From contig NZ_CP042912.1 of NCBI RefSeq assembly GCF_008087665.1, positions 1,860,001 to 1,924,000 on the forward strand: a stretch of DNA of 64,000 nucleotides. The letters run 5' to 3'. Both the position numbers and the translations under genes were made by a program. Each line of letters starts with the position of its first letter. Position 1 is the stretch's first letter. Shown piece by piece: positions 35,953-55,332 of the stretch. Source of the DNA: Mariniblastus fucicola (lineage in GTDB: Bacteria; Planctomycetota; Planctomycetia; Pirellulales; Pirellulaceae). Below the pieces are notes generated by a model. That model worked only from the letters and a program-made list of their open reading frames with translations, did not search any database and was not told where the DNA came from.

Positions 35953-37167
35953 ATGAGCAACGTCCTCGACAAAACGGAAAAAGCGACTGCCGCCAGCAGC
36001 TCAACCAAACCAGAAACCGTGCGAGCGGTCGCCATGACGGCGCCGGGACAGACGGAAATGAGGTCCTATCCCTATCCGACGATGGATCAGGATTCGGCGA
36101 TTCTCAAAGTAGACATGGCGGGTATCTGTGGCACGGATCGCCACATTTACAAAGGAGAAGCCACCGAGCTGCGCGGGAAGTCGATCTTTCCGTACGTTGG
36201 TGGCCACGAAGTCATCGGCACGATCATGGAGATCGGCGACAACGCGGCAAAAGTCATGGACTACGACCGGCAGCCACTTGAAGTCGGTGATCGTGTCGCA
36301 CTTGCGGTGGAAGTCAATTGCGGCCACTGCATCTACTGCCGCAAGCATTACAACAACACGACTTGCCTGAATCAGATTCAGGCTTACGGCTTGCATCCGA
36401 ACTGCGAGACCAAGCCTTATCTTCGCGGTGGCTTTGCCGAGTACATGTACATCATGCCTGGCACGCATCTGTTCAAGGTTCCCGAAGAGATGCCAACCGA
36501 CGTGGCGGTCTTCGTCGAAGAGATGGCGGTTGCCTATCATTCGCTTGGTCGGGCGTCGAGCATGTTCGCGCCGGTCAACGAAGGCTTTGGCCCTGGGCAG
36601 TCAGTCGCCGTTTTGGGCAACGGCCCGTTGGGGATTCTGCACGGCATTATGGCGGACATTCACGGTGCGGGTTTGAAGATCGCAACGGATTTGTCTGATC
36701 TGCGACTTGGGATTGCCGAAGGCCTGTATGCGGATGTGACGTTGAACGCGTCCAGGATGTCAACCGACGAGCGAATTGCTCGCGTGAAGGAGATGACAGA
36801 CGGCGGTGTCGGTCCGGATTTGGTGATCGAGTGTGCCGGTGAGCCCGAAGCGTTTATCGAAGCCCTGAAGATGGTTCGTAAAGGCGGCACGGTCATTGAA
36901 GTCGGTAACTGGGTGGACATGGGTAAGCCTGTGAATCTCGATGTGATGAGGCACATCAGTTCCAAGAACCTGCACATTCATTCGGTGTTCCACTGCGGCA
37001 CCGATTGGCGTCCAGTGCTCAAGATTCTCCAACAGCAGTCAAAACGGTTTGACTTCCCGTCGTTGATTACGCATCGATTGGGTCTGGATGAGTTGGTTGA
37101 TCAGTTCGGGACGGTCACGAACTTCGACGAGTGCTGTAAAATTGAAGTGATCCCGCACAAGGCTTAG
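35953..37167 (+). CDS. Zinc-dependent MDR-family sugar/polyol dehydrogenase
   Basis: This 404-residue medium-chain dehydrogenase has the catalytic zinc ligands CGTD and GGHEVIG, and structural zinc cysteines in NCGHCIYCRKHYNNTTC. The Rossmann segment is VAVLGNGPLGILHGIMADIHG, followed by the acidic end of beta-2 (ATDLSD), which favours NAD over NADP. Residues 1-20 are a non-conserved extension. Related enzymes oxidise polyols, threonine or sugar alcohols. Next to ribose genes a pentitol or pentose derivative is a plausible substrate, but this is inference. It is divergent from the AraC regulator across about 90 bases and 127 bases before rbsD. Confidence 0.88.
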   Translation: MSNVLDKTEKATAASSSTKPETVRAVAMTAPGQTEMRSYPYPTMDQDSAILKVDMAGICGTDRHIYKGEATELRGKSIFPYVGGHEVIGTIMEIGDNAAKVMDYDRQPLEVGDRVALAVEVNCGHCIYCRKHYNNTTCLNQIQAYGLHPNCETKPYLRGGFAEYMYIMPGTHLFKVPEEMPTDVAVFVEEMAVAYHSLGRASSMFAPVNEGFGPGQSVAVLGNGPLGILHGIMADIHGAGLKIATDLSDLRLGIAEGLYADVTLNASRMSTDERIARVKEMTDGGVGPDLVIECAGEPEAFIEALKMVRKGGTVIEVGNWVDMGKPVNLDVMRHISSKNLHIHSVFHCGTDWRPVLKILQQQSKRFDFPSLITHRLGLDELVDQFGTVTNFDECCKIEVIPHKA

Positions 37168-37779: not shown

Positions 37780-38772
37780 ATGAAGCAAATAACCTCCATT
37801 CTGTCCCTCGCATTTGCCATGTTCATTGCTGCCACGATCGGCTGCAACAGCGACACGCCCAGCAAAACCGCTGGTGAAAATGATGCTGAAGGAGGCAGTG
37901 ACAGCAAACGCATCGCCGTGGTCGTTTCCACGCTCAACAATCCCTGGTTCGTCGTGCTGGCCGAAGCCGGCAAAGAGAATGCGGAAAAACTTGGCTATGA
38001 AGCTACCATCTTCGATTCGCAAAACGATCCGGCCAAGGAAACGGAGCACTTCGACAATATCGTTTCTTCCGGCTATGCCGCAGTGCTTTTCAATCCGACG
38101 GATGGCGATGGCTCAATCGCAAACGTAAAACGCGCCAAGGAGGCTGGCGTCCCGGTGTTCTGCATGGATCGCGAAATCAACTCGACCGACGTCGCGGTCA
38201 CCCAGATCCTTTCCGACAATTATTCCGGCTGTGTATCGCTTGGCCAGCACTTCGTCAAAGAGGTTGGCGAATCGGGAAAATACGTCGAGCTGCTGGGGCT
38301 GGTCGGCGACAACAATACCTTCAACCGATCCAAAGGTTTCCACAGTGTCGTCGATCGCTATCCTGATCTGGAAATGGTGGCTCAGCAAAGCGCCGATTTT
38401 GATCGCGCAAAAGCTTTGGAGGTCATGGAGTCAATCCTGCAAGCCAATCCCGACATCAACGCGGTTTTCTGTGGTAACGATGCAATGGCAATGGGTGCCT
38501 ATCAGGCGCTCAAGGCATCCGGCAAAGCTGATTCGGTCAAAGTTTTCGGATTCGACGGCGCTGACGACGTGGTGAACTTGATCAAGGAAGGAAAGATCGC
38601 CGCCACCGGCATGCAGTTCCCCAAACTGATGGCTCGCACTGCTGCGGAATCCGCGGACAAATATCTCAACGGCGATACGGATTTCCCTCAAAAAGTTCCA
38701 GTCACTGTTGAACTCGTCCACCAGGGAAATGCGGACAGCTTCGGCGACTATGGCCGAGAGGAAACCGAGTGA
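37780..38772 (+). CDS. rbsB: Ribose ABC transporter substrate-binding lipoprotein
   Basis: This 330-residue periplasmic-binding protein is of the ribose/galactose class (type I fold). The N-terminus ends in [11 protein letters not shown], a lipoprotein-type cleavage site. The start of the mature fold, [20 protein letters not shown], and later [39 protein letters not shown] and VFGFDGADD are classic RbsB segments. The stop overlaps the GTG start of the DUF2291 gene (GTGA). Confidence 0.93.
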
Positions 38773-39425
38773 AAAAGAGCGGCGGCCGATGGGGGATTCG
38801 AATCGCGCTCGCTTTGGCGTGCGTTGTGTTGCTCTATTTCTTTCCACTGTTTCGCGTGGTGGCTCTCAGCGATGTCGATACGCCATCAATTAACAATGGC
38901 GCCGTGCAGTTCGATGCCACGACGTTTGTCGACTCGTTCTGGTCGGACAAACTTCTTCCCGGAGAAAACAAGGCCACGAATATTGCCGAGCTAATCACGG
39001 CGATTGAAAAAGACAAAGCATCGGCAAAGGAATCGTTTGGTCGTACCGTTGGGCTTAGCCGAAGCTATTTCTATTTCGTCAAAGGCACAGGTCGCGTTGT
39101 TAAAGTCAAACGCAACACGATCGGAATTGCAATCGACGAAAGTTCAACCGCGCCGCAAGTTCTGCTGGACATCGGACCCATTTTCGGCAACGTTGTTCGC
39201 GACGGAACGGGCTTGTTGGACGTCAACGATTTTGCGAACTCGCAGGACTTCAACGCGATTTCAACGGAGCTCAACCGGCGCATCGAAGCCGACGTGCAAC
39301 CGGCGCTGCGTGAGAAGGCTATCGCAGGAGCCAACGTTCGCTTCACTGGTTGCGTGCAAATCACCGATGAAAGCTCGGACCTTTCGCCGCTGAGGATCGT
39401 TCCCTTTTTCGCGGAGGTCCCATGA
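38769..39425 (+). CDS. DUF2291-type membrane-anchored protein
   Basis: This 218-residue protein has one N-terminal hydrophobic helix ([20 protein letters not shown]) and a predicted extracytoplasmic domain ([20 protein letters not shown], then [20 protein letters not shown]). This matches DUF2291 proteins, which in other genomes occur within ribose-type ABC transporter operons. GTG start and stop codon both overlap neighbouring genes by 4 bases (rbsB upstream, rbsA downstream), so it is translated as part of the transporter set. It may assist assembly or substrate capture; role unproven. Confidence 0.8.
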
Positions 39426-41077
39426 ACGACTCTTCCGATGTCATTCTTCAAGCCAATTCGATTTCGAAGTCTTTCCCGGGAGTCAAAGCACTCGATGGCG
39501 TTGATTTGACGCTTCGCGCCGGTCGCTTGACGGCCTTGCTGGGCGAAAACGGCGCCGGCAAGTCAACGCTGATGAAAATCCTGGCCGGTGTTCAGCCGCC
39601 AGACGAAGGCGAATTGATCCTTGATGGCGAAGCCGTTCAGTTCTCGAACCCACGCGAAGCACTCGACCGTGGCATCGCGATGATCTACCAGGAATTGAGC
39701 CTCGTTCCTGATCTGACGGTGGCCGAGAACATCTTTCTTGGTCGCGAGCCGGTGCAGCTTGGCGGGGCGATGATCGACTATCGCGAAATGAACCGTCGCA
39801 CCGCCGATTGGATGAAGCTACTGGAGATGGATGTCTCTCCAACGACCAGCGTGGGTAGGCTTCGAGTCGGTCAACAGCAGCTGATTGAGATTGCGCGTGC
39901 TCTTGCCGGTGACGTTCGCGTTTTGATTCTGGACGAACCCACTTCGGCAATTTCAGAGCATGAAACAGAAGTCCTTTTCCGCCGCATCGCGGACTTGAAG
40001 CAACGCGGCGTGGCGATGGTTTACATCACGCACCGCCTTGAGGAACTGGAACGTATCGCCGACGACGTGGCAATCATGCGGGATGGTCAGCTGGTCGGAA
40101 GCGGCGAGTATGGCGTCCGTAGTAAGTCTGAGCGACAAGGCGCTAGCCGTCGGTTCGTTGCAGCGGAAAACCGGCGGCTAGCGCCTGGCCGCTCACCTGT
40201 CGAGCAGCGTCTGGCTGAAGCCGGTACTACAAACAAATTCACCCACGACGAAATGGTCCGCTTGATGGCCGGCCGCGACGTGAAAACTTCCCAACGATCC
40301 TCGTCGGCTACCGAAAATGAAGTGCTTCGCGTGAAAGGCATCTCGTTGCCACATCCCACACGCGTCGATGACTTTCTGGTCAACGATGTCGACCTCCACG
40401 TTCATCGCGGCGAAGTGCTGGGCATCTTCGGCTTGATGGGGGCGGGACGAACCGAACTTTTGGAGTGCGTTTTTGGGTTGCATCATGGCGTTGCCTCGGG
40501 CGACGTTCAGATCGAAGGCAACGATGTGACGATCCGTCGGCCAGGCGAAGCGATCGAACATGGACTTGCTTTGGTCCCGGAAGACCGAAAACGCGACGGA
40601 CTGGTTTTGCCAATGACCGTCGGCGAAAACGCGAGCCTTGCCAGTCTGCGGCGGGCCGAAAAGTTTGGTTTGCTCAGTTCAAAGTCGCTTCGCGATCACG
40701 TTCATCCGTTTGTCGAACGGTTTCGCGTCAAGACACCTTCATTGCGGGAGCGGATCGTCAACTTGAGTGGGGGCAATCAACAGAAAGTCATCCTGGCGAA
40801 ATGGTTGGCGACGCAGCCAAAGGTACTGATGCTCGACGAGCCGACTCGTGGCATCGACGTGCAAGCCAAAAACGAAATCTACGAATTGATTAACGAGCTA
40901 ACGGCCGAAGGTCTGGCTGTCGTGATGGTGTCATCCGAACTGCCGGAAGTGATGGCGGTTTCGGATCGCATTCTTGTGATGTGTGAGGGTCGTGCTACGC
41001 AAGAGTTTTCTCGCGACCAGGCCACTGACGAAAAGATATTACATGCCGCATTGCCAGGGAGGGCCGCGACGATATGA
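39422..41077 (+). CDS. rbsA: Ribose ABC transporter double ATPase, with repeat-derived insertion
   Basis: RbsA powers ribose import. It has two ATPase halves. The first carries GENGAGKSTL, signature region LRVGQQQLIEIARAL and Walker B VLILDEPTSAI. The second carries the degenerate P-loop GLMGAGRTELL usual for RbsA, LSGGNQQKVILAKWL and VLMLDEPTRGID. The length of 551 is about 50 more than usual. The excess lies at about residues 230-272, where a palindromic repeat (40129-40234) adds ERQGASRR...RRLAPGRS between the first half and DEMVRLMAGRDV. The frame is intact, so the protein is probably functional. ATGA overlaps join it to the DUF2291 gene and to rbsC. Confidence 0.93.
   Translation: MNDSSDVILQANSISKSFPGVKALDGVDLTLRAGRLTALLGENGAGKSTLMKILAGVQPPDEGELILDGEAVQFSNPREALDRGIAMIYQELSLVPDLTVAENIFLGREPVQLGGAMIDYREMNRRTADWMKLLEMDVSPTTSVGRLRVGQQQLIEIARALAGDVRVLILDEPTSAISEHETEVLFRRIADLKQRGVAMVYITHRLEELERIADDVAIMRDGQLVGSGEYGVRSKSERQGASRRFVAAENRRLAPGRSPVEQRLAEAGTTNKFTHDEMVRLMAGRDVKTSQRSSSATENEVLRVKGISLPHPTRVDDFLVNDVDLHVHRGEVLGIFGLMGAGRTELLECVFGLHHGVASGDVQIEGNDVTIRRPGEAIEHGLALVPEDRKRDGLVLPMTVGENASLASLRRAEKFGLLSSKSLRDHVHPFVERFRVKTPSLRERIVNLSGGNQQKVILAKWLATQPKVLMLDEPTRGIDVQAKNEIYELINELTAEGLAVVMVSSELPEVMAVSDRILVMCEGRATQEFSRDQATDEKILHAALPGRAATI
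40129..40234 (+). repeat. In-gene palindromic repeat, copy B
   Basis: A 67-bp element at 40129-40195 has arms TGAGCGACAAGGCGCTAGCC and its near inverse; 51 of 67 bases match copy A by hand count, with the arms most alike. The second module GGCTGAAGCCGGTACTACAA follows at 40213 after 17 bases. It is read in the same protein frame as copy A (ERQGASRR...RRLAP). Confidence 0.85.
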
Positions 41078-42045
41078 AACTGGACCGCGAACATCTGGCA
41101 AAGTTTCAATCGCTGATTGCGCTCACCGCGATGGTTGTTGCGATGAGCTTGCTGTCGAGCAACTTTCTCACTGCCGACAACGGATTGAATATTCTGAGAC
41201 AGATTTCAGTTAACCTCTGCCTGTCAATCGGGATGACGCTGATCATTCTCACCGGCGGCATCGACCTTTCCGTAGGAGCGATCCTCGCATTGTCGGGAGC
41301 GATTGCGGCGGGCTTGCTCAAGAATGGAGTCCGGCTGGAGGCGTTGGGGTTGGGATTGGAGTTCACTGTTTTTGGAGCAGTCGTTGCGGGGTTGCTTGCA
41401 GGCGCGGCGGCAGGTTTGTTCAACGGTTTGGCGATTACCAAATTCAAAATTCCTCCTTTTGTGGCGACGCTGGGGATGTTTAGCATCGCCCGAGGTCTGA
41501 CGATGCTATGGACCGGCGGCTTTCCGATTACAGGACTCGGCGATACCTTCGGCTGGATCGGATCGGGCATGCTGTTTTCGATTCCCGCTCCGGTTTGGAT
41601 ATCCGCGACGTTGGTGTTGGCTTTCGTGTTGTTGACTCGGCTCACTCGATTCGGCCGACATATTTACGCCGTTGGAGGCAACGAACGCGCCGCATTGTTG
41701 ACGGGGCTTCCGGTCGATCGAATAAAGATCGCGGTTTATACGCTAGGCGGATTGCTTTCTGCAGCCGCAGCCATGATCGTGACGGCTCGACTTGATTCAG
41801 CTCAACCGAACGCTGGTTTAGGCTACGAACTCGACTCGATTGCCGCCGTTGTCATTGGAGGCACATCACTTTCGGGAGGCCGCGGAAGTGTTTTGGGAAC
41901 CGTGATTGGGTGCTTGATCATCGGCGTGCTTAACAACGGACTTTTCTTGCTAAACGTTTCCCCATTTTGGCAACAAGTGGTGAAAGGCTTTGTGATCTTG
42001 GCCGCGGTTGCCGTGGATCGAATGAGTCAGGTGGATTCCAGATGA
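41074..42045 (+). CDS. rbsC: Ribose ABC transporter permease
   Basis: This 323-residue integral membrane protein of the RbsC/AraH family has about 8-10 helices. Family core motifs are ILTGGIDLSVGAILALSGAI, AAGLFNGLAITKFKIPPFVA, TLGMFSIARGL, YAVGGNERAALLTGLPVDR and AVVIGGTSLSGGRGSVLGT. It starts within the rbsA stop (ATGA) and its own stop overlaps the rbsK start. It forms the import channel with RbsA and RbsB. Confidence 0.95.
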   Translation: MKLDREHLAKFQSLIALTAMVVAMSLLSSNFLTADNGLNILRQISVNLCLSIGMTLIILTGGIDLSVGAILALSGAIAAGLLKNGVRLEALGLGLEFTVFGAVVAGLLAGAAAGLFNGLAITKFKIPPFVATLGMFSIARGLTMLWTGGFPITGLGDTFGWIGSGMLFSIPAPVWISATLVLAFVLLTRLTRFGRHIYAVGGNERAALLTGLPVDRIKIAVYTLGGLLSAAAAMIVTARLDSAQPNAGLGYELDSIAAVVIGGTSLSGGRGSVLGTVIGCLIIGVLNNGLFLLNVSPFWQQVVKGFVILAAVAVDRMSQVDSR

Positions 42046-42983
42046 GCGAAAGCAAAACACCTCGAATCTGCGTCGTCGGTTCAGCCAATATTGATTTGAT
42101 CTTTCGCACGCCGCGAATGCCGGCTCTTGGAGAAACGATTGCCGGAACGGCCCTGCACCAGTGTATGGGAGGCAAAGGCGCGAACCAGGCAGTCGTGGCG
42201 GCGCGACTTGGCGGAGAGGTTACTTTCATCGCAAGCGTCGGCAGCGATGCGTTCGGTGCTGAATCCATTTCGGCCTACGAAGCGGAAGGCATCGATGCGT
42301 CCTACATCAGCCGCGCGTCCGATCAGCCGACAGGAACCGCAGCAATTTTTGTCGACGACGAAGCGGAGAATTGCATCATCGTGGTGGCCGGTGCCAACGC
42401 TTTGCTTTCACCAGAAAGCATTCGTGCTGCGGCGAACGTCATCGAACAATCCGATGCGGTGCTTTGCCAGCTGGAAACGCCTGTAGATGCGGCGGTGGAG
42501 GCCTTTCGCATCGCGCGTGCAGCGAACACGACCACGATCCTGACGCCGGCTCCTGCAAAAAGTGTCACCGATGAGTTGCTGTCTTTGTGCGACGTTTGCG
42601 TGCCCAACAAAACAGAGATCACGTTGATCAGCGGGATTGCAATTGAGTCAGAAGACGACGCGATACGCGCGGCCGAAGTGCTGCGGGCCAAAGGAGTGAA
42701 GCAAGTTGCTTTGACCCTTGGCAGTGAGGGAGTGTTGGTGCTGGACGATTTTGGCCAGACAAAGATCCCGGCGATGAAGGTCGCTGCGGTGGACACGACC
42801 GGGGCAGGCGATGCCTTCACTGGCGGACTTGCCATGTCACTTGCCGGAAGCCCTGGTCTGGCCGATGCCGCGAGACGGGCCGCGATCGTTGCCGCCATTT
42901 CCGTTACCAAAATCGGCACACAAACATCATTTCCAACGCTCGAAGAAGTTGAAGCCTGGACCACCAAAAAGGAAACGTCATGA
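42042..42983 (+). CDS. rbsK: Ribokinase
   Basis: This 313-residue PfkB-family kinase phosphorylates ribose at O5. Start ATG 42042 overlaps the rbsC stop; a longer frame upstream runs inside rbsC. Family motifs are GSANIDLIFRTPRMPALGET, CMGGKGANQAVVAARLGGE (the GGKGANQA sugar site) and VDTTGAGDAFTGG with the catalytic aspartate. The stop overlaps the start of the first DUF1593 gene (ATGA), so the chain of coupled genes runs on into secreted proteins. Confidence 0.95.
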   Translation: MSESKTPRICVVGSANIDLIFRTPRMPALGETIAGTALHQCMGGKGANQAVVAARLGGEVTFIASVGSDAFGAESISAYEAEGIDASYISRASDQPTGTAAIFVDDEAENCIIVVAGANALLSPESIRAAANVIEQSDAVLCQLETPVDAAVEAFRIARAANTTTILTPAPAKSVTDELLSLCDVCVPNKTEITLISGIAIESEDDAIRAAEVLRAKGVKQVALTLGSEGVLVLDDFGQTKIPAMKVAAVDTTGAGDAFTGGLAMSLAGSPGLADAARRAAIVAAISVTKIGTQTSFPTLEEVEAWTTKKETS

Positions 42984-44443
42984 TTCACAGATTGAAGCCA
43001 GTTCGCAGTGCCGTGCTCACGCTAATGAGCATGCTTGTCTTTCCCAGCGGAATTTCTTTTGCCGAGGAACCCGAGCTTCAGCGCAAGGTCGTGCTGACCG
43101 ACATCGAAGCCGACCCCGACGACACGCAATCGCTGGTTCGGCTGTTGCTGTACGCGAACCAGATCGACATCGAAGCCATCGTGGCAACAACTTCGGTGCA
43201 TCAGAAAGATCGTGTGGCTCCCGAGTCGATTCACAAAGTCCTTGACGCTTACGGCAAAGTTCAGGCAAACCTCTTGCTGCACGAACCGGGATTTCCCACC
43301 GTGGAAGACCTCAAGGCGAAAGTCACTGAGCATCTTCCGCTTTACGGCATGGAAGGCGTGGGCGAAGACAAGGACTCGCCGGGTTCCGACCGAATCATCG
43401 AGCTGTTGGACTCGGACGACGAAAGGCCGCTTTGGATTTCCGTTTGGGGCGGGCCGAACACACTGGCTCAGTCGCTTTTCAAACTTCGCAAAACCCGTTC
43501 TGCAGAAGAGCTTGAAAAACTGGTCAGCAAACTCCGCGTCTACACGATCTCCGACCAGGACGATTCGGCGATCTGGATTCGCAATGAGTTTCCAGGCGTG
43601 TCCTACATCGTCAGTCCCGGCAGTTATCGTCGCTCAACCTGGGGGGCGATCAATCAGCGAATCGATGGCATCGACAACACAACCATCAGCAACAAGTGGA
43701 TCGCCGACAATATTCAGCAATCGCACGGTCCGCTCGGAGCCCAGTACCCCGACGTCGCCTGGGGCGTTGAAGGCGACACGCCGGCGTTTCTTGGCTTGCT
43801 TCCCAACGGGTTGAACGTTCCCGAGCGTCCGGACTTCGGCGGTTGGGGTGGGCGATACGAGCTTTCGCAGCCGACCGATGAAGAAATCAAAGTTGGCCAG
43901 GACGTGGAAGGCGTGCCCATCAAAGCTGAAACGCGAAAGATCTGGACCAACACGGAAGACTCATACGCTCCGCGAATCTTCAAGGAGTATGGCCGAGCCG
44001 AGAAGCCTGACGAGCAAACGTTCACCAACAATCGAGTCACGCTTTGGCGTTGGCGAGATGATTTTCAAAACGACTTCGCCGCTCGCATGGACTGGACGAT
44101 CAAAGATGTTGCCGGCGCGAACCATCCGCCCGTTCCGGCTTTGGCTCATCCGGAAAAGTTCACCGTAGAACCGGGCGAGAAGTTTCGGCTTGATGCGGGG
44201 GGCACGACGGACCCCGACGGTGACAGTCTTGGTTTCACGTGGATGCAGTATCCCGAGGCCGGTTCCTCGCCGCGAGTCAAAGTCGACTTCAAGAACTTCC
44301 CTGAGAACGTATACCAGGTAAATCGCGTCGCGCCGAAAGTTAGCCGGACCGAGACGATGCACTTCATTCTAAAAGTCACCGACAAAGGCAGCCCGCCACT
44401 GACTCGATACAAACGCGTGATCGTGACGGTGGAGCCGAACTAA
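42980..44443 (+). CDS. Secreted DUF1593/Sde182-like protein 1 (nucleoside-hydrolase fold)
   Basis: The 487-residue protein starts with a signal peptide (MSMLVFPSGISFAEE). Residues about 30-330 match the DUF1593 (Sde182) nucleoside-hydrolase-like domain: VVLTDIEADPDDTQSLVRLL has D1, D7 and D8 spaced as in the metal site of true nucleoside hydrolases; VWGGPNTLAQSL corresponds to their GPLTNxA loop; GVEGDTPAFLGLLPNGLN carries a late aspartate. A PKD/Ig-like domain follows (GEKFRLDAGGTTDPDGDSLG). The start overlaps the rbsK stop. Known relatives include a cellulose-binding protein, so it could bind or cleave a glycan or a riboside. Confidence 0.88.
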   Translation: MIHRLKPVRSAVLTLMSMLVFPSGISFAEEPELQRKVVLTDIEADPDDTQSLVRLLLYANQIDIEAIVATTSVHQKDRVAPESIHKVLDAYGKVQANLLLHEPGFPTVEDLKAKVTEHLPLYGMEGVGEDKDSPGSDRIIELLDSDDERPLWISVWGGPNTLAQSLFKLRKTRSAEELEKLVSKLRVYTISDQDDSAIWIRNEFPGVSYIVSPGSYRRSTWGAINQRIDGIDNTTISNKWIADNIQQSHGPLGAQYPDVAWGVEGDTPAFLGLLPNGLNVPERPDFGGWGGRYELSQPTDEEIKVGQDVEGVPIKAETRKIWTNTEDSYAPRIFKEYGRAEKPDEQTFTNNRVTLWRWRDDFQNDFAARMDWTIKDVAGANHPPVPALAHPEKFTVEPGEKFRLDAGGTTDPDGDSLGFTWMQYPEAGSSPRVKVDFKNFPENVYQVNRVAPKVSRTETMHFILKVTDKGSPPLTRYKRVIVTVEPN

Positions 44444-44445
44444 TC

Positions 44446-45720
44446 ATGATTCGTTCAGTGACAATCCTGGCGCTGCTCATGCTGATCGCGCTGTTGGTCT
44501 GCGCTCCCTGCGCTGCTGAACGCCACCGAGTGATTGTTTCCACCGACATCGGCGGCACCGATCCGGATGACTTTCAGTCGATGGTTCACCTGTTGGTTTA
44601 TGCTGACGATCTGGACATCGAAGGACTGATTTCTTCGCCGTATGGCGATGGTCGCAAACAGGACATCCTTGACGTGATTGATTGCTACGAGAAAGACTTT
44701 CCAAACCTGAAAACGTATTCCGACGACTATCCAACTCCCGATCAGCTGCGAATGTTGACGAAGCAGGGCGAAACCGAGCGAGCTCCGTACTGCGGATTCC
44801 GAAAGTCCACGGAAGGATCGCGATGGATCATTGAATGTGCCAAAACCGAAGACGATCGGCCATTGCACGTCCTTGTTTGGGGAGGCCTCGAAGACATCGC
44901 GCAGGCACTCCACGACGATCCGGAAATTTTGCCGAAGCTGCGCGTCTACTGGATCGGCGGACCGAACAAAAAGTGGTCGCCTGATGCTTACCAGTACATC
45001 GTCGAGCACCATCCGAAATTGTGGATGATCGAATCCAACGCGACGTATCGCGGCTGGTTTGTTGGCGGGCCGCAGGCTGAGGACCTTGGCAACGAAACTT
45101 TCGTGAAGAATCACGTGAAAGGGAAAGGCTCGCTGGGCGACTTCTTTGTAAGTCAAAAATCAGACATCAAAATGGGTGACACTCCTTCGGTTGCCTGGTT
45201 GCTTAAAGGCAAACCTGACGATCCGACTCAGCCTGGTTGGGGTGGCCAATACGTGCCGGCCTGGAGGCGTCCCATCAAAAAGCTTGATCGCATGCCAATG
45301 CCTCACGACCAGATTGAGATCTTCGGCATCCTTGAGTTGTCTCTGCCGACCCAAAACGTTCCGGCCGATTCGCAGGCGACATTGAACGTCGAAAATCAAA
45401 AATTGGTTGGGCACTTTTCTGACAACGCGCTTCGGTTTCGTTTCTGTCCCAAAGCCGCCAAGAAATACAACTTCACGATCGGCAGCAATGTCGCATCGCT
45501 CGATGGTATCACGGGAACGATCAAGTCTGTTCGTCCCTCGCCCGAGATCGCGAAGGAAGCTTCGGGCCTATATCGAAACTGGTGGACCGATACTCCCGAT
45601 CCGGCATTTGCCGAAGACGGCCACCATGGTGCCAAAACAGTCAACCGATGGCGCGAGGAATTTCTTCGCGACTTCTCTGAACGAATGCTGCGCTGCAAAC
45701 TACCGAAACCATTAAATTGA
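44446..45720 (+). CDS. Secreted DUF1593-like protein 2
   Basis: The 424-residue protein begins two bases after the previous stop. It has a signal peptide (LALLMLIALLVCAPCAAE). The nucleoside-hydrolase-like domain shows VIVSTDIGGTDPDDFQSMVH, VWGGLEDIAQAL, WMIESNATYRG and KMGDTPSVAWLL. Unlike copies 1 and 3 it lacks the PKD-like LDA...DPDGD segment and has a different beta-rich C-terminus (about residues 290-420). It differs enough from its neighbours to suggest separate substrates rather than recent duplication. Confidence 0.85.
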   Translation: MIRSVTILALLMLIALLVCAPCAAERHRVIVSTDIGGTDPDDFQSMVHLLVYADDLDIEGLISSPYGDGRKQDILDVIDCYEKDFPNLKTYSDDYPTPDQLRMLTKQGETERAPYCGFRKSTEGSRWIIECAKTEDDRPLHVLVWGGLEDIAQALHDDPEILPKLRVYWIGGPNKKWSPDAYQYIVEHHPKLWMIESNATYRGWFVGGPQAEDLGNETFVKNHVKGKGSLGDFFVSQKSDIKMGDTPSVAWLLKGKPDDPTQPGWGGQYVPAWRRPIKKLDRMPMPHDQIEIFGILELSLPTQNVPADSQATLNVENQKLVGHFSDNALRFRFCPKAAKKYNFTIGSNVASLDGITGTIKSVRPSPEIAKEASGLYRNWWTDTPDPAFAEDGHHGAKTVNRWREEFLRDFSERMLRCKLPKPLN

Positions 45721-45734
45721 ATTCGAGGTAACCC

Positions 45735-48359
45735 ATGAACATTCTACGAACGCTGTTAGGCTTTTTTCTTGCCCTGGTTGTTTTGTCTGACGGCAGCGGC
45801 GAAGCCATGGCGGAAAAGCCGCGGATGGTTGTCCTTACCGATGTGTCGACGTGGGAGACGGACGACCACGAGTCACTGATCCGCTTGATGGCACACGCGG
45901 ACCTGTTCGAGATCGAAGGCCTGGTGATGACCACCGGCTACAGCATCAGCACGCTGAACAAGTCACCTGAAAAAGATTTCATCAACATCATCCGCGGAGT
46001 CGTCGACGCTTACGAAAAAGATCTGCCGAACCTGATGAAACGATCAGGACAAACTGGACACGCACACGACGATGGGGTGCAAAAAGTTGGCTACTGGCCA
46101 AGCGCTGATTACTTGCGAGACCGGATCGTCATTGGCAGTCCCAATCGCGGCATCAAGTTCATCGGTGACGACAACAATTCCGCCGGGAGTGAACTGCTGA
46201 TCAACCTGGCGGACGAGGAAGACGATCGTCCGTTGTTTGTCGGCATCTGGGGCGGCGGCAACACGCTTGCTCAGGCAATTCACAAAGTCAAAAAGGACCG
46301 CAGCCCAACTGATTACAAAAAGTTCCTGAACAAGCTTCGTGTGTACGCGATTACGGATCAGGACCGCAGCTACAAAGGTGAAGGCCACGAGATCAGTTCT
46401 CACGGTTGGATTTACGAGCAGACGGGCAGCGATCTGGAATTCATTTGGGACGAAGCCGCCTGGAAACAACACAATGGAATCGGCAAAAGCAACTGGGATC
46501 AATACGCCCAGCACATTCAGGGCCACGGCAATCTCGGCAGCCAATACCCGAAATACAAATACGGCGTCGAAGGCGACACGCCGGCCTTTCTGTTCCTGAT
46601 GCCCAATGGTCTCAATGATCCGGACGATCCGACGCAGTCGAGTTGGGGCGGGAACTTCGTCCACAAAGACGGCGGCCTGTGGCGGGAAGCAAAATCCTGC
46701 GCCGCGAACTTCAAGCAAACCTATCCAGCGGCCTTCAACAACTTTGCCGCTCGCATGGACTGGGCCAAAGATGGAAAAGGAAATCGCAATCCCGTTCTAA
46801 GTCTTAATGGTGATATAAGCTTGGACGTGCTTACCAAAACTGCCGAGCCTGGATCGAAGGTAACGTTGAACGCCTCCGCGACGACGGATCCTGATGGCGA
46901 CGAGTTGAGATTCAAATGGTGGGTGCAGGGCGACGCCGGAGACTATTCTGGCAAAGTTGAACTTTCTGGCAGCGACACTCATGAAGTCACGGTCGAAGTG
47001 CCTGCAGCCGCAGCCGGTCGCAGCTTCCACGTCATCTGCGAGGTCACCGACAACGGAACGCACAATCTTAGCAGCTACCGACGAGTCATCTTTCAGGCGA
47101 CCGGGGAAACCGTCGCCGGTGTTGCTTCGGCGCAAAAGCAAACCGCGATGACCGATGCCGCTGCGAAAAACCAGTCGATGGCGGAATGGCTGAGAGTCTA
47201 CATTCCCTCAAACTATGCGGGCACCGAAGTGGTTGCTCATGGCGGTGGAGCCTGGTTCCAGGCAAAGCTCGCGGAACCCGAATTGGTCGCCAGTTGGGCG
47301 GATTGGAAAGAAGAAGTTCTGACATTGAAAGACGTCGAAGCTCACAGTTTGACCGAAGGCGAATCGCTCTTCGTCAGCGAGACGTCAAAAACAAAATGGG
47401 CTGAACACGCCAACGTTACTTTTTACGAGGGAGTCGGCTACTACATCGACGGCTATGAAGCTTCGACGATGTCCAGCTGGGATGTGGCCAAAACCACGAT
47501 GATCCAGTTCACCGGCGACTCCGATGGGTTTGTTGCGGCGATGGCGAAAGCAAAACAGGAGAGCCCATCTGCTTCGATGCCCAAAGAAGTTTCGTTTCGA
47601 CAGTGGCTCTTTGAGTTCCTTCCGACGCAATATCCCGACGCCCAAATGGTCGACCACACTCACTGGTTGCAGGCAAAGATCGGCAACGGCGTCACTGCGA
47701 ACTGGACCGAGTGGACAGAAGAAGATTCGACTTTCAAAGCGATGGAGGCTCATAATCTCGTCGCCGGCAAGTCCATGTTCGTCGAACAGAAGGGTGCGAA
47801 GAACAAGGAATGGGCTGAGCACCCTGCGGTTACGTACTACGAGGGAGCTGGCTACTACATTTCCGGTTACGATCCGACAACGATGAGCGACTGGGATGGC
47901 AAAGCGCTTTCTGTAATACAATTCGACGGCGAATCCAAAGACCTTGCTCGCACAATCGGCATGGGCTGGGCCCGCAGGCAATCGTTCGCAGGTTGGCTGT
48001 ACCATTATCTTCCCGCGAAGTTTCCCAACGCTCGCATGACCGATCACGGAAAATGGAAGCAGGCTCACATCACCGACGGCGACGTCGCCAGCTGGGAAGA
48101 ATGGACGGTTGAAGGCGTCACGCTGAAGTACATCGAAGACCACAGTTTGGCTCAAGGCAAATCGTTCTTCATTGAGAAAGCAACGAAGACTCCATGGGCC
48201 GATCATGCGGCGGTTACGTATTATCCTGGCGTTGGTTACTACTGCACGGGTTACGACTCGGCCACGATGAGCGACTGGAACGTTGAAGGCCTCACGTTAA
48301 TCCAGTTTGACGGTGACTCGAAAGAGATCGTTGAAGCGATTGTCAAAGGATGGAAGTAG
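45735..48359 (+). CDS. Secreted DUF1593-like protein 3 with three tandem C-terminal modules
   Basis: The 874-residue protein has an ideal GAGGT six bases before the ATG. It has a signal peptide (FFLALVVLSDGSGEAMA) and a DUF1593 domain at about 30-340 (VVLTDVSTWETDDHESLIRL, IWGGGNTLAQAI, GVEGDTPAFLFLMPNGLND). A PKD/Ig-like domain covers about 360-460 (LNASATTDPDGDELRFKWW). Three tandem modules of about 130 residues follow, starting near 480, 619 and 749, each with a WL..Y/F.P...P.A...DH opening and a YYxGxGYYxxGYxxxTMSxW core. I do not recognise the module; binding of a surface or glycan is a guess. Confidence 0.87.
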   Translation: MNILRTLLGFFLALVVLSDGSGEAMAEKPRMVVLTDVSTWETDDHESLIRLMAHADLFEIEGLVMTTGYSISTLNKSPEKDFINIIRGVVDAYEKDLPNLMKRSGQTGHAHDDGVQKVGYWPSADYLRDRIVIGSPNRGIKFIGDDNNSAGSELLINLADEEDDRPLFVGIWGGGNTLAQAIHKVKKDRSPTDYKKFLNKLRVYAITDQDRSYKGEGHEISSHGWIYEQTGSDLEFIWDEAAWKQHNGIGKSNWDQYAQHIQGHGNLGSQYPKYKYGVEGDTPAFLFLMPNGLNDPDDPTQSSWGGNFVHKDGGLWREAKSCAANFKQTYPAAFNNFAARMDWAKDGKGNRNPVLSLNGDISLDVLTKTAEPGSKVTLNASATTDPDGDELRFKWWVQGDAGDYSGKVELSGSDTHEVTVEVPAAAAGRSFHVICEVTDNGTHNLSSYRRVIFQATGETVAGVASAQKQTAMTDAAAKNQSMAEWLRVYIPSNYAGTEVVAHGGGAWFQAKLAEPELVASWADWKEEVLTLKDVEAHSLTEGESLFVSETSKTKWAEHANVTFYEGVGYYIDGYEASTMSSWDVAKTTMIQFTGDSDGFVAAMAKAKQESPSASMPKEVSFRQWLFEFLPTQYPDAQMVDHTHWLQAKIGNGVTANWTEWTEEDSTFKAMEAHNLVAGKSMFVEQKGAKNKEWAEHPAVTYYEGAGYYISGYDPTTMSDWDGKALSVIQFDGESKDLARTIGMGWARRQSFAGWLYHYLPAKFPNARMTDHGKWKQAHITDGDVASWEEWTVEGVTLKYIEDHSLAQGKSFFIEKATKTPWADHAAVTYYPGVGYYCTGYDSATMSDWNVEGLTLIQFDGDSKEIVEAIVKGWK

Positions 48360-50408: not shown

Positions 50409-50438
50409 TTGGCTCCCAAACCACTTCCGAATGAGACG

Positions 50439-50470
50439 ACGGGTGAGCCAACTGGCTCACCCGTTTTTTT
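50439..50470 (+). terminator. Rho-independent terminator
   Basis: ACGGGTGAGCC at 50439-50449 pairs perfectly with GGCTCACCCGT at 50454-50464, giving an 11-bp stem and 4-base loop, followed by a run of seven T counting the last stem base. Confidence 0.93.
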
Positions 50471-51070: not shown

Positions 51071-53059
51071 ATGGACATGAACTTTCGGACGACGCTCAGA
51101 CGATCTATCGCTTGCTGCATTGCGTTCCCGCTTATGGCAACGCCGATTGTTGCTCAGGAGAAACCTGTCTCTGTTGCGACGCCCGATGGTTACGCCACGC
51201 AAAACGGCGGCACCACCGGTGGAGGTGACGCGCCGCGAGTCACCGTCTCGACTGCTGAAGCATTCAGTAAAGCCGTTTCGGGCGATGAACCGGCGGTCGT
51301 CATCGTCGATGGCCAAATCGAAATCGGAAACGTCAACGTTGGCTCGAACAAGACCATCGTTGGCGCGGGCGTCACCGCGGGGCTCTCAGGCGGCACGCTG
51401 AAAGTCCGCAGCAACAATGTCATCGTGCAAAATCTGACTTTGGGGCCGGCCGAAGGCGATGCGATTGAAGTCTCCGGCGCAAAGAATGTCTTTATCACCA
51501 AATGTTCCTTTCACGATAGCTCCGACGAGCTTTGTTCCGTGGTCCGTGAGTCCGACTTTGTCACGATCTCGTGGTGTAAATTCTATTTCGACAAACCGCA
51601 TGGCCATGCATTCGGTGGACTGATTGGAAATGGCGACGACCGGGAATCTGATCGTGGCAAGCTGCACGTGACGATGCACCACAACTGGTACGCCGAAGGT
51701 GTCAAGGGAAGAATGCCACGTGTGCGTTTCGGCCACGTCCACATCTACAACAACTTTTACAACAGCATCGGTAGCGGATACTGCATCGGCACTGGATTCG
51801 AATGCCATGTCCGCGTGGAGAACAGCTGTTTCGAAAAAGTGAAACGCCCGTGGCGGGAACAGAAGGTCGGCGCTCTGCAAAGCGGCGGCGAAATCGGCTG
51901 GAGTAACCTTGCTTTTGAAGGCTGCGAACAACCGACGTATATCGAGAACAAGTTTCCGGTGTTTGAACTGCCTTACTCTTTTGATGCGGACAAAGTCGAA
52001 GACGTTAAAGCTCGGGTCACAGATTCAACTCGCGGTGCCGGTAACTGCCTGAGCCCGAAAACGGGAAGCTCCGAATCGAAGAAGCCACGCATCGTCGTCC
52101 TGTCCGACTTTCCGCCGATCGGAGTGGTAAAAGGCGGCGACGTTCCCAACACGATGAAGAGCGATCCTGATGACATGCAGTCGATGGTTCGCTTTCTGCT
52201 GTACTCCAATGAGCTTCAAGTCGAAGGGCTTGTTGCGGCTGCGGGCACGTTTGCGATGGAAGCTCACAAGAAGAACATCCTCGGCGTGCTCGACCGTTAC
52301 GAAAAAGTCTATGAAAACCTGAAGTCACACGATCCTGATTTCCCCACGCCGGACTATCTGCGATCGGTGACTTACGAAGGCCGCGGCAATAATCACGGAA
52401 CCAACATCAAGTGGGGCAAAGACAAACAGCCGTGGTCCGACATCATCGGCGAAGGACTCGACAGCGAAGCTTCCGACGCGATCATCAAAATCGTTGACAA
52501 ACCTGATCCGCGTCCGGTCTGGATCAGTGTGTGGGGCGGACCGCGCGAAGTCGCCCAAGCCATCTGGAAGGTAAAGAACACTCGCAGTGAAGCAGAACTC
52601 GAAACGTTTGTCAGCAAACTGCGAATCTTCCTGATCGCCTACCAGGATGCAACGCATGGCTGGCTGATGGAAGAGTTCCCGGACCTGTTCATCATTGACT
52701 CGCGCAAGACCTATCAAGGAATGTTCGGCGGCCGAGACCAGTTGTCTGACTTGAATTGGGTCAACGAACATATCCGCAAGGGACATGGCCCGCTGTGTGA
52801 CGTCTATCCGCACGAGGGCATGGGTTGCACCGGAGTTTGCGAAGGCGACACGCCGGCCTTCATGAATCTAATCAGCGAATTGCGTGGCCTTAACGATTCC
52901 GAAGACCCGACACAGCCAAGCTGGGGCGGGCAATACAAACGCCTGGCTGGTACAAATCACTTCGTCGATGGTCCTGGCAAGTCCAGTATCTCTCGATGGA
53001 GAAAGGACTACCAAAAGGAATTCCAGCAGCGGGCTGACTGGTGCGTGACGCCAAAATAG
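51071..53059 (+). CDS. Pectate lyase (PL1 type) fused to a DUF1593 domain
   Basis: The 662-residue protein has a signal peptide (CCIAFPLMATPIVAQE). Residues about 30-320 form a PL1 right-handed beta helix: FVTISWCKFYFDKPHGHAFG, GKLHVTMHHNWYAEGVKGRM and PRVRFGHVHIYNNFYNSIG. The RMPRVRFG segment contains the catalytic arginine of PL1 lyases. Residues about 340-660 are a DUF1593 domain (MKSDPDDMQSMVRFLLYSNE, VWISVWGGPREVAQAI, CEGDTPAFMNL, DPTQPSWGGQYKRL). The lyase cleaves polygalacturonate-type glycans; the fusion ties DUF1593 to the same substrate. Confidence 0.9.
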   Translation: MDMNFRTTLRRSIACCIAFPLMATPIVAQEKPVSVATPDGYATQNGGTTGGGDAPRVTVSTAEAFSKAVSGDEPAVVIVDGQIEIGNVNVGSNKTIVGAGVTAGLSGGTLKVRSNNVIVQNLTLGPAEGDAIEVSGAKNVFITKCSFHDSSDELCSVVRESDFVTISWCKFYFDKPHGHAFGGLIGNGDDRESDRGKLHVTMHHNWYAEGVKGRMPRVRFGHVHIYNNFYNSIGSGYCIGTGFECHVRVENSCFEKVKRPWREQKVGALQSGGEIGWSNLAFEGCEQPTYIENKFPVFELPYSFDADKVEDVKARVTDSTRGAGNCLSPKTGSSESKKPRIVVLSDFPPIGVVKGGDVPNTMKSDPDDMQSMVRFLLYSNELQVEGLVAAAGTFAMEAHKKNILGVLDRYEKVYENLKSHDPDFPTPDYLRSVTYEGRGNNHGTNIKWGKDKQPWSDIIGEGLDSEASDAIIKIVDKPDPRPVWISVWGGPREVAQAIWKVKNTRSEAELETFVSKLRIFLIAYQDATHGWLMEEFPDLFIIDSRKTYQGMFGGRDQLSDLNWVNEHIRKGHGPLCDVYPHEGMGCTGVCEGDTPAFMNLISELRGLNDSEDPTQPSWGGQYKRLAGTNHFVDGPGKSSISRWRKDYQKEFQQRADWCVTPK

Positions 53060-53093: not shown

Positions 53094-54356
53094 ATGCAAA
53101 GACCCATGAAAACTCTCATCCTGTTTCTTGCCGCAGTTCTTGTCTCCGCCAGTTCTGCCGCTGCGCAACAATCGTCTTCCATCATTGACGCCGACGCAGT
53201 CGCTCGAATCAATTCGAATCTGGGTTCTTTCGTCGAATCGGGAGCCATCAAAGGCGTCTCCGCAATGGTATTTGAAAAGGACAAAGAAGTATACTTCAAA
53301 GCCTTCGGCATGTCTGACGAAGAAGCTGGAATCCCAATGTCGCGCGACACGATCGTGCAAATCTTTTCCATGACCAAGCCCGTTACTGGCGTGGCGTTGA
53401 TGAGGCTTCACGAGCAAGGCAAATTCAAACTTGACGATCCGGTTTCGAAATACATTCCGTCGTTCGCGAACCTGAAAGTCGCCACTGGCAAAGACGAAAA
53501 CGGGGATCTGATCTTGGTCGATCCCAAACGGCCGATGACCATTCGCGACTTAACTCGCCACACTTCAGGCCTGGCCGGCAACCATGGTCCGGCTTGGGTC
53601 AAAGAACTCATCAAAGACAATCCGCTCAAGCCCGAAAACACACTCGAACAGGCCGCAGAAGCGTTCAGCAAACTGCCACTGTGGTTTCACCCTGGCAGCC
53701 AATGGTCGTATGGTCCCTCTGTCGACATGCAGGCTCGCCTGGTGGAAATTCTCTCTGGCAAGAAGTTCGACGTCTACATTCAAGAGACCATTCTCGATCC
53801 GCTGAAGATGACCGACACGTCCTACCGTGTTCCCGAAAGCAAGCTGGGTCGGATGGCAGGCATCTACTGGCGTGACGACAACACGGGCGAACTCTCGCGC
53901 AAGGATGATGAAAAGGACTTCAATACAAAGCCCTATCCAATGACGCCCGGCGGCTGGGGACTGACCGCAACCATCGACGACTACATGCGTTTCGCTCGCA
54001 TGCTGCAAAACGAAGGCGAACTTGACGGCGTCCGAATCCTGAAACCCGAAACCGTGAAACTAATGGCAACCAGTCACCTTTCGGAGAACGTCAAAGAGCG
54101 ATCGTGGCTGCCGAGCAAAGGCCAAGTCGGATTTGGAATCGACTTTGCCGTTCGCGTTGCTCCACCTCAATCGAAAAACGAACCCAATGGCGTCGTCGGC
54201 GAATTCTTCTGGGACGGCGCGGCCAGTACGATGTTTTGGGTCGATCCAAAGAGCGATTTGACTGCTGTGATGTTTGTGCAGTTGCGACCGTTTGACAAAA
54301 TTGGATTACAAAAGGCATTTCGCAACGCCGTTTACGGTCCACGGGTCGCCGATTGA
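53094..54356 (+). CDS. Secreted serine hydrolase of the beta-lactamase/class C family
   Basis: The 420-residue protein has a signal peptide (LILFLAAVLVSASSAAAQ). The active-site motif SMTK at residues 92-95 gives the nucleophile serine and lysine, and a tyrosine follows in WSYGPSVDMQ near 206, as in family VIII esterases and class C beta-lactamases. PF00144-type segments include MTIRDLTRHTSGLAGNHGP and MTPGGWGLTATIDDYMRFAR. In this setting an esterase that removes acyl groups from glycans is as likely as a beta-lactamase or peptidase. ATG 53106 is an alternative start. Confidence 0.88.
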   Translation: MQRPMKTLILFLAAVLVSASSAAAQQSSSIIDADAVARINSNLGSFVESGAIKGVSAMVFEKDKEVYFKAFGMSDEEAGIPMSRDTIVQIFSMTKPVTGVALMRLHEQGKFKLDDPVSKYIPSFANLKVATGKDENGDLILVDPKRPMTIRDLTRHTSGLAGNHGPAWVKELIKDNPLKPENTLEQAAEAFSKLPLWFHPGSQWSYGPSVDMQARLVEILSGKKFDVYIQETILDPLKMTDTSYRVPESKLGRMAGIYWRDDNTGELSRKDDEKDFNTKPYPMTPGGWGLTATIDDYMRFARMLQNEGELDGVRILKPETVKLMATSHLSENVKERSWLPSKGQVGFGIDFAVRVAPPQSKNEPNGVVGEFFWDGAASTMFWVDPKSDLTAVMFVQLRPFDKIGLQKAFRNAVYGPRVAD

Positions 54357-54450: not shown

Positions 54451-55332
54451 ATGCGAATTTGTTTCACTGGCGGCTCGGGAAAAGCGGGACGCCACGTTGT
54501 GGCTCACCTTGCCGCCCAAGGCCACACGGTTCTGAACCTTGATTTAGTGCCCGCGAACATCAAAGGCGTCTGGGACATGACGGCTGATTTGACAGACACC
54601 GGCCAAGTGTTTTCTGCACTCTCGGGAATCGTTGGCTTCGACGAACTCGATTGCGAACCCGGAGTTCCCAAATTTGATGCTGTCGTGCACTTTGCCGCCA
54701 TCCCGCGAATTCAGCTGCGCCCGGATCCCGATTGTTACCGCATCAATACGGCTTCGACCTACAACGTATTGGAAGCCGCGATCAAGCTGGGCATTCCCAA
54801 ATTACTGTTCGCGTCATCGGAAACGACTTATGGTATCTGCTTTGCCGACGGCGAAGTCAAACCTGACTATATCCCGGTCGATGAAGAACACTCAACCGTT
54901 CCGCACGATGCCTACGCGATGTCGAAAGTTTGCAACGAGGTTTGCGGCAAGGGCTTTCATGCACGGTCGGGCACCGACATCTATGCCTTGCGGATTAACA
55001 ACGTGATCGAGCCGCACGAGTATGAAGCCTATGCTCCGCAGTGGAAAGCCAACGCAGCGTGCCGCCGCCGCAACATCTTCGCCTACATCGACACTCGCGA
55101 TCTGAGCCATTTTGTCGAGTGCGCTTTGGCGACCGATGGACTGGGCTATCAGGTTTTCAACGTCGCCAATCCCGATTCGTCGGTCGGCATGCCCAGCGCC
55201 GACGTGATCCAGAACTTTTACGCCGACGTGCCACAGAAACGCGAGTTTGGCGAGTATGAAACGTTCTATTCGATCGACAAATCCCGCGAGTTGCTAGGAT
55301 TCGATCCGCAGCCGCGTTGGCGAGACGACTGA
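54451..55332 (+). CDS. NAD-dependent epimerase/dehydratase, uronate-dehydrogenase-like SDR
   Basis: The 293-residue extended SDR starts with the nucleotide site FTGGSGKAGRHVVAHLA, keeps D in NLDLVP after beta-2 (NAD preference), has VVHFAAIPR, the active-site serine in LFASSETTYG and YAMSK (YxxxK). Length and the AGGKAG-like N-terminus recall uronate dehydrogenases, which oxidise galacturonate or glucuronate. Next to a pectate lyase that would be sensible, but the call within the SDR family is inference; a UDP-sugar epimerase is possible. Confidence 0.82.
   Translation: MRICFTGGSGKAGRHVVAHLAAQGHTVLNLDLVPANIKGVWDMTADLTDTGQVFSALSGIVGFDELDCEPGVPKFDAVVHFAAIPRIQLRPDPDCYRINTASTYNVLEAAIKLGIPKLLFASSETTYGICFADGEVKPDYIPVDEEHSTVPHDAYAMSKVCNEVCGKGFHARSGTDIYALRINNVIEPHEYEAYAPQWKANAACRRRNIFAYIDTRDLSHFVECALATDGLGYQVFNVANPDSSVGMPSADVIQNFYADVPQKREFGEYETFYSIDKSRELLGFDPQPRWRDD

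Follow-up and report, generated by a model that had tools for sequence, protein, structure and literature searches.

A PL1 pectate lyase-like helix fused to an Sde182 nucleoside hydrolase-like domain beside ribose-type uptake genes in Mariniblastus fucicola

The fusion gene and its locus

PF07632 (Sde182_NH-like, where NH stands for nucleoside hydrolase) is a protein family with a solved structure and no known substrate; it was formerly DUF1593, and the old name is used for its members in public records. Here we describe a gene that joins a domain of this family to a parallel beta-helix of polysaccharide lyase family PL1. The gene lies in a stretch of 64,000 nucleotides of Mariniblastus fucicola (NZ_CP042912.1, positions 1,860,001 to 1,924,000; the window below), behind a run of rbs-type genes and three further PF07632 genes (Table 1). 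The fusion is conserved in another genus and has formed independently a second time, and in the family, loci with at least three PF07632 domains carry a ribose-type ATP-binding cassette (ABC) transporter and usually a ribokinase. For PF07632, the fusion points to the class of polymer (uronates) and the rbs linkage to the class of monomer (pentofuranoses). A carbohydrate link of the family was already published before this analysis; what is new, as far as literature searches show, is the conserved and repeated fusion with PL1 and the coupling to rbs genes. No report of a PL1-PF07632 fusion was found in the open-licence literature searched, which is not proof of absence.

Table 1. Features of the fusion gene and its surroundings (window positions)
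Feature	Position	Strand	Remark
AraC-type regulator	34988..35860	-	
Zinc-type alcohol/polyol dehydrogenase	35953..37167	+	conserved beside rbs genes
RbsB-like binding protein	37780..38772	+	best PDB match T. maritima ribose-binding protein 2fn8, E 2.9e-115
DUF2291 lipoprotein	38769..39425	+	
RbsA-like sugar ABC transporter ATPase	39422..41077	+	
RbsC-like ribose-type ABC permease	41074..42045	+	
Ribokinase	41967..42983	+	TIGR02152, 357.9 vs cut-off 299.65 bits
PF07632 + Sde0182_C protein	42980..44443	+	4-bp overlap with ribokinase gene
PF07632 protein	44446..45720	+	
PF07632 + Sde0182_C protein with 419-aa C-terminal stretch of no Pfam family	45735..48359	+	
Terminator-like hairpin with T run, upstream of fusion gene	50438..50465	+	pattern match
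PL1-PF07632 fusion gene	51071..53059	+	single intact ATG-to-stop frame, 662 aa; signal-peptide-like N-terminus (by eye)
PL1 parallel beta-helix module, residues 33-329	51167..52057	+	PF00544; 7bbv sequence match; VIA Z 40.4
SSDELCSV, residues 150-157	51518..51541	+	D152 kept; S156 where 10/14 aligned PL1s have Asp
GRMPRVRFG, residues 213-221	51707..51733	+	R214 and R219 of RxPxxR motif kept
Linker, residues 330-339	52058..52087	+	pLDDT <50 at 330-334
Sde182 NH-like module, residues 340-662	52088..53056	+	PF07632; 2yhg sequence and fold match
D346 ... D367-D368	52106..52174	+	invariant Asp, probable Ca/pentose site; insert between them typical of NH subfamily
CEGDTPAF, residues 590-597	52838..52861	+	G592, D593, P595 invariant in 20/20 aligned NH-like domains
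Serine hydrolase, beta-lactamase/esterase class	53094..54356	+	34 bp downstream of fusion; order same in G551
NAD-dependent epimerase/dehydrogenase-like protein	54451..55332	+	also in G551 cluster

The Pfam search places PF00544 (Pectate_lyase_4) at residues 77-241 with 90.2 bits against a cut-off of 24 (E 1.8e-25), and PF07632, the sole family reported for the second half, at residues 362-622 with 238.1 bits against a curated cut-off of 26.8 (E 1.7e-70), covering profile positions 8-268 of 268. The best solved sequence relative of the first half is pectate lyase B (7bbv, E 7.7e-35), which also matches model residues 32-329 in structure comparison; profile score and parallel beta-helix together make this half a member of PL1. 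For the NH half, the sole PDB sequence match up to E 1 is Sde_0182 of Saccharophagus degradans (2yhg, E 7.6e-50), and model residues 337-662 match 2yhg with Z 37.4 as against Z 20.0 for the E. coli nucleosidase RihA. The AlphaFold model has two well-ordered domains with a mean pLDDT (predicted local distance difference test) of 88.0, and its pTM (predicted template modelling score) of 0.61 means that the relative placement of the two domains is uncertain. Residues 1-31 have low model confidence and by eye look like a signal peptide, and the protein is predicted to be secreted. An initial annotation had read the gene as a complete PL1 helix joined to a complete DUF1593 domain, and this is borne out by Pfam, by the model and by both fold matches.

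Conservation and recurrence of the fusion

We searched for the fusion in three sets of genomes: 392 from the phylum, 241 from the family and 337 from another phylum, to which G625, a metagenome-assembled genome titled Chthoniobacter flavus, belongs. At most three candidates were scored per genome in both phylum surveys and at most five in the family survey, and all counts are among the matches listed. Three fused proteins were found, all in the family set; the 392 genomes of the phylum gave no fusion other than the window's among the matches listed, and the 337 genomes gave no single place that spans both halves among theirs. The check for fused frames covered 166 of 167 loci, L156 from E. coli being left out. 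A search of genome contigs, which may omit records close to the window, yielded eight sequences related to the PL1 half but no other fusion, and none of the 59 plasmid records matching the whole protein has 80% of it in one place.

The family search returned a full-length ortholog in another genus of the same family (G551), 80% identical over residues 3-659. Between the two genes the nonsynonymous divergence (dN) is 0.126 in the PL1 half and 0.096 in the NH half, with synonymous differences near saturation; both halves are under purifying selection at the protein level, and the linker, with a dN of 0.47, is free to change. The surroundings common to both genomes comprise the permease, ribokinase, PF07632 genes, fusion, beta-lactamase-class hydrolase and epimerase. 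The third fused protein, of 792 aa in G599 (locus L094), consists of PL1, PF07632 and Sde0182_C. In trees neither half falls near its window counterpart; the PL1 half clusters with G554 and G432 genes, and the NH half with one from G432 (70% identity). The pair has therefore been joined at least twice. Relatives of both G599 halves stand in one cluster in G432 (L103), in the order NHa, GH127, PL1, NHb. The domain-pair search proposed with the initial annotation has therefore returned the same pair in an ortholog and, independently, in G599; the assembly error that it had allowed for is ruled out by the syntenic ortholog and by this second fusion.

Closest to the PL1 half are a Phycisphaerales protein (61%) and, at 53-55%, a PL1 whose contig was binned as Desulfobacterales; both are without an NH module, and the nearest NH domains, from G602, G603, G600, G601, G542, G482 and G194, include none fused to PL1. 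In L095, L097 and L046 this nearest NH domain comes second in a pair, in L096 it follows part of an NH3-type protein, and in L098, L099 and L100 it stands alone. Since the nearest relatives of the two halves are not fused to each other, the window fusion looks like the product of an exchange of the N-terminal partner. On the Desulfobacterales contig, whose label is taken as given (L058, 542-4427), PL1, apiosidase-like/DUF6298 and PF07632-type genes stand in a row, the PL1 of 55% identity two genes from the PF07632-type gene.

Active site of the PL1 half

D130, D152, H179, R214 and P216 are common to all 14 PL1s aligned; R219 is present in 10 of them, and R214 and R219 both occur in 4/4 members of the subfamily to which the window protein belongs. 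The catalytic segment RMPRVRFG singled out earlier is therefore present (residues 214-221) with both arginines of the RxPxxR motif, yet activity does not follow from it, as the DGxxD calcium motif reads DExxS and the calcium site is non-canonical. At residue 156 there is Ser in the window protein, the G551 ortholog and their two nearest relatives, and Asp in the other ten; at residue 153 the same four have Glu and the other ten Gly. The canonical lysine position (F181 in the window protein) holds Phe or Tyr in 10 of the 14. From B. subtilis Pel and PelC, we take the Asp at residue 156 to be a calcium ligand and the F181 position to be that of the active-site Lys of PL1 pectate lyases. The window protein thus shares with V. 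dahliae pectate lyase B (7bbv) and other PL1s the whole beta-helix, the RxPxxR motif and two aspartates (D130, D152), and differs in the serine at the third, the missing lysine and the fused NH-like domain.

PfPL1 and VexL are PL1 members without catalytic calcium (PMC11229556), and not all subfamilies need the canonical calcium-site aspartates and lysine. Apiogalacturonan is a substrate of PfPL1 from Pseudoalteromonas fuliginea (PL1_2, 9buj), an enzyme that seems to have no catalytic calcium pocket and is proposed to be metal-independent in catalysis (PMC11229556). The likeness to PfPL1 runs through PL1_2-like proteins encoded in five loci that hold both rbs and NH genes (rbs-NH loci, below): these have S-x-D-E and H-x-F-G-G at aligned positions, and the one of the five that was tested (L114) matches PfPL1 at E 1.8e-48. 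Inside the window's PL1 subfamily, H-x-F-G-G occurs in the window protein and its ortholog only. The second catalytic Arg of PfPL1 has no clear counterpart in the window protein, which has R219 instead. From these residues we lean to a metal-independent lyase.

The Sde182 NH-like half

Twenty NH-like domains from the window, its own genome and other genomes were aligned, and D346, D367, D368, W488, G489, G592, D593 and P595 are identical in all of them, so the conserved aspartate (calcium) site of PF07632 (D346, D367, D368, D593) is complete in 20/20. The HDP of E. coli RihA would correspond to GD(T/S)P in these domains, in which the His, presumably a catalytic residue of RihA, is not kept. 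A profile comparison of the PF07632 half with RihA (probability 2.0 over 38 columns) is too weak to use.

Sde_0182 and the window domain have in common the PF07632 NH-like domain (38% identity over 281 residues). The partner in Sde_0182 is a set of carbohydrate-binding modules, whereas here it is the PL1 helix, and the window protein is without the Sde0182_C domain and carries additional residues between D346 and D367. According to a review (PMC8910321), Sde_0182 has retained its calcium ion, shows no activity on nucleosides, whether purine or pyrimidine, and is regarded as a module that interacts with furanoses; it is likewise joined to carbohydrate modules. The Pfam name of the family includes cellulose-binding.

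Linkage to rbs genes

The window has RbsB, RbsA, RbsC and ribokinase genes adjacent to each other, and the gaps from RbsB to the third PF07632 gene (-4, -4, -4, -79, -4, 2 and 14 bp) make the rbs genes and three PF07632 genes an operon-like run. The RbsB-like protein shares long identical sequence blocks with the T. maritima ribose-binding protein, and D-ribose is its putative ligand. The ribokinase is the only one over the TIGR02152 cut-off in the window's genome. The locus resembles an rbs ribose-uptake operon in these four components and differs from it in the added secreted-looking PF07632 proteins, dehydrogenase and glycan enzymes.

We checked 36 loci of the family with the window's genes, all chosen for PF07632 or PL1 matches, the controls excepted. 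Nineteen of them hold at least three NH places, and 18 of these 19 (the exception is L118) carry two or more of RbsA, RbsB, RbsC and RbsK; none of the other 17 does, of which 14 have one or two NH places and 3 lack any. The window's own locus is among the 18, and the 36 are not independent: L101 and L118 adjoin in G477, and L116 and L117 are both in G548. None of 20 control regions from elsewhere in 19 of the same genomes has an rbs match; one has a beta-lactamase-class match.

Glycan genes beside PF07632

Among the 36 loci, GH127 occurs in 7, an apiosidase-like protein in 2 and the epimerase in 6, and in the 18 rbs-NH loci a PL1-type beta-helix protein is fused in 2 and encoded 3-154 bp from an NH gene in 5. 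In a census of 14 genomes, 5 have a PL1, which in four of these is fused to PF07632 or lies about 4.4 kb away. We also examined PF07632 contexts in 7 of 11 matched regions of plasmid records, and 4 of the 7 are beside glycan or uronate genes. In Catenovulum the gene is beside GH115 and esterase genes, in Spirosoma near two GH127 and several esterase or alpha/beta-hydrolase genes, and in Croceicoccus beside uxaC and altronate dehydratase, with GH43 further on; the stretches examined in these three hold no rbs genes. Croceibacterium has GH65/GH3. Of the remaining regions, that of Pantoea is beside a ROK-family gene, that of Skermanella has no such gene and that of Indioceanicola is without annotation.

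The link from DUF1593 to glycans that had been drawn from the fusion is supported, and recurs beside PL1 in L058, GH127 and PL1 in L103, GH115 in Catenovulum and the uronate genes of Croceicoccus. The further step, to read neighbouring DUF1593 genes as glycan-binding or glycan-cleaving proteins rather than nucleosidases, is not forced by the fusion, because these genes run with RbsB, RbsA, RbsC and ribokinase; such a run is consistent with ribose, or a pentofuranose like it, being set free from any kind of carrier. The observation is confirmed and its interpretation partly supported, the direction towards glycans being right.

A uronate-catabolism locus, with uronate as the main gain, is unsupported. 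UxaC scores 641.7 bits in the window's genome and 42.7 bits in G551, and of the 13 genomes other than the window's, 9 have matches of 41-58 bits and 4 have none; as it is strong in the first and marginal in the second, uronate catabolism does not track the fusion.

Five of the PL1-type neighbours counted above are the PL1_2-like proteins (450-496 aa; L098 18501-19901, L100 2024-3451, L101 1990-3363, L113 11386-12876, L114 4854-6206). They fall below the Pfam cut-off for PF00544, so that plain Pfam annotation would miss such lyases. Weak rows on them for a binary-toxin Ca-binding domain and a helicase, both under the cut-off, were taken as chance or as a calcium-repeat motif that TSP3 repeats also match. 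In the fifth census genome with a PL1 (G409:C1:6378434-6378951) the gene is broken into two frames, lies about 252 kb away from the closest PF07632 gene and is possibly a decaying copy.

Proposed function and alternatives

What has to be explained is a fusion that is conserved, has re-formed independently and is linked to rbs and glycan genes. The presence of rbs genes beside the fusion in a second genus suggests that the PF07632 domain handles five-carbon sugars on acidic polymers, and the simplest account of uronate or pectin-type partner genes together with an outlet for pentose uptake is that PF07632 proteins hold or release pentofuranose on acidic polysaccharides. We therefore propose, at about even odds (0.5), a role in glycan foraging: the lyase would open up a polymer of uronates, and the Sde182 domain would bind a pentofuranose or set it free. 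In this scheme the fusion would be a secreted two-module protein of a foraging locus. Its PL1 module would act by beta-elimination on a uronic-acid polymer, presumably as a lyase with R214 as base and probably without a catalytic calcium ion. The tethered NH-like module would hold a pentofuranosyl unit through the conserved Asp (probable calcium) site, and would then either cleave it off or hold the protein to the decorated polymer. Once released, the pentose (ribose, or a sugar like it such as apiose) would be imported by the RbsBAC-type transporter and phosphorylated by the ribokinase of the same locus. The identity of the sugar, and hydrolysis or binding by the NH-like module, are what we infer: ribose is favoured because of RbsB and ribokinase, apiose because apiosidase-like genes lie nearby and the PL1_2 relative acts on apiogalacturonan, and arabinose because of GH127.

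Several points weigh against this proposal. Ribose is not known to be a usual sugar of pectin. The degenerate calcium motif (S156) and the Phe at the lysine position would also suit a module that has lost its lyase activity or that serves for binding. In overall comparison 7bbv, a canonical PL1, is closer to the PL1 half (Z 40.4) than is PfPL1 (9buj, Z 28.6, 18% identity), which ranks behind 7bbv, 3zsc and others and is absent among the 23 sequence matches. At the threshold used, 11 of the 18 rbs-NH loci are without a PL1-like protein, and the UxaC of G551 is marginal beside that of the window's genome. A terminator-like hairpin and a separate 490-aa gene intervene between the rbs-NH run and the fusion, so that fusion, hydrolase and epimerase may form a second transcript; terminator-like sites in the region are at shuffle level (11 found, 10.2 expected), as are promoter-like sites (4 found, 3.7 expected). 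Finally, 27 of 28 genomes of the window's genus, many of them incomplete, have no match to the fusion protein; the locus is hence dispensable or acquired, which suggests gain by transfer or loss elsewhere in the genus.

A more specific form of the proposal is possible, and we hold it only tentatively. Here the Sde182 domain would be an O-furanosidase on the NH fold that trims beta-D-apiofuranose or ribofuranose branches, the fused metal-independent PL1 would cut the uronic-acid backbone, and the rbs-type uptake would be fed by the product. If true, this could be a new family of glycosidases built on the nucleoside-hydrolase fold.

Somewhat more doubtful is that neither module is catalytic, with a degenerate PL1 helix and a lectin-like Sde182 domain tethering the cell or other enzymes to a uronate polymer. 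The change of the calcium-site Asp to Ser in 4/4 members of the PL1 subfamily speaks for such binders, as do the cellulose-binding family name and the furanose-interacting role suggested for Sde_0182 (PMC8910321). They are harder to reconcile with the strong constraint on the PL1 half, with R214 in 14/14 and R219 in 10/14 PL1s and both in the whole subfamily, and with the S-x-D-E and H-x-F-G-G also found in the PL1_2-like neighbours, which have an active lyase as a relative.

Salvage of ribose from nucleosides or nucleotide cofactors seems unlikely. The PF07632 proteins would then be secreted N-ribohydrolases, RbsBAC and ribokinase would take up the ribose, and the PL1 helix would be only an anchor to a surface polymer. 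An NH fold with an invariant Asp site, an RbsB nearest to ribose-binding proteins, a sole ribokinase over its curated cut-off and three NH genes in an operon-like run with rbs genes would all suit this. It is opposed by the inactivity on nucleosides reported for Sde_0182 (PMC8910321), by the replacement of the RihA HDP, and by PF07632 genes found with GH115, GH127 or uronate genes but without rbs in three other genera. A neutral or accidental fusion or assembly artefact without joint function, which would suit there being just three fused proteins among the matches listed, is highly improbable and largely refuted by the 80% ortholog, the purifying selection on both halves, the conserved neighbours and the second independent fusion.

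Other features of the locus

The secreted-looking 490-aa protein between the rbs-NH run and the fusion (48936-50408) has no Pfam match and was not found in other clusters by tblastn at E 1e-15. The 419-aa stretch at the end of the third PF07632 protein (47100-48359) appears as if built of repeats of about 130-140 aa and looks like an undescribed accessory domain of PF07632 proteins; different parts of it align at the same positions of the tandem NH proteins encoded in G551, G600 and G603. The dehydrogenase at 35953-37167 passes no NCBIfam cut-off and recurs with 76-86% identity beside the rbs genes in most rbs-NH loci, and its substrate may name the sugar.

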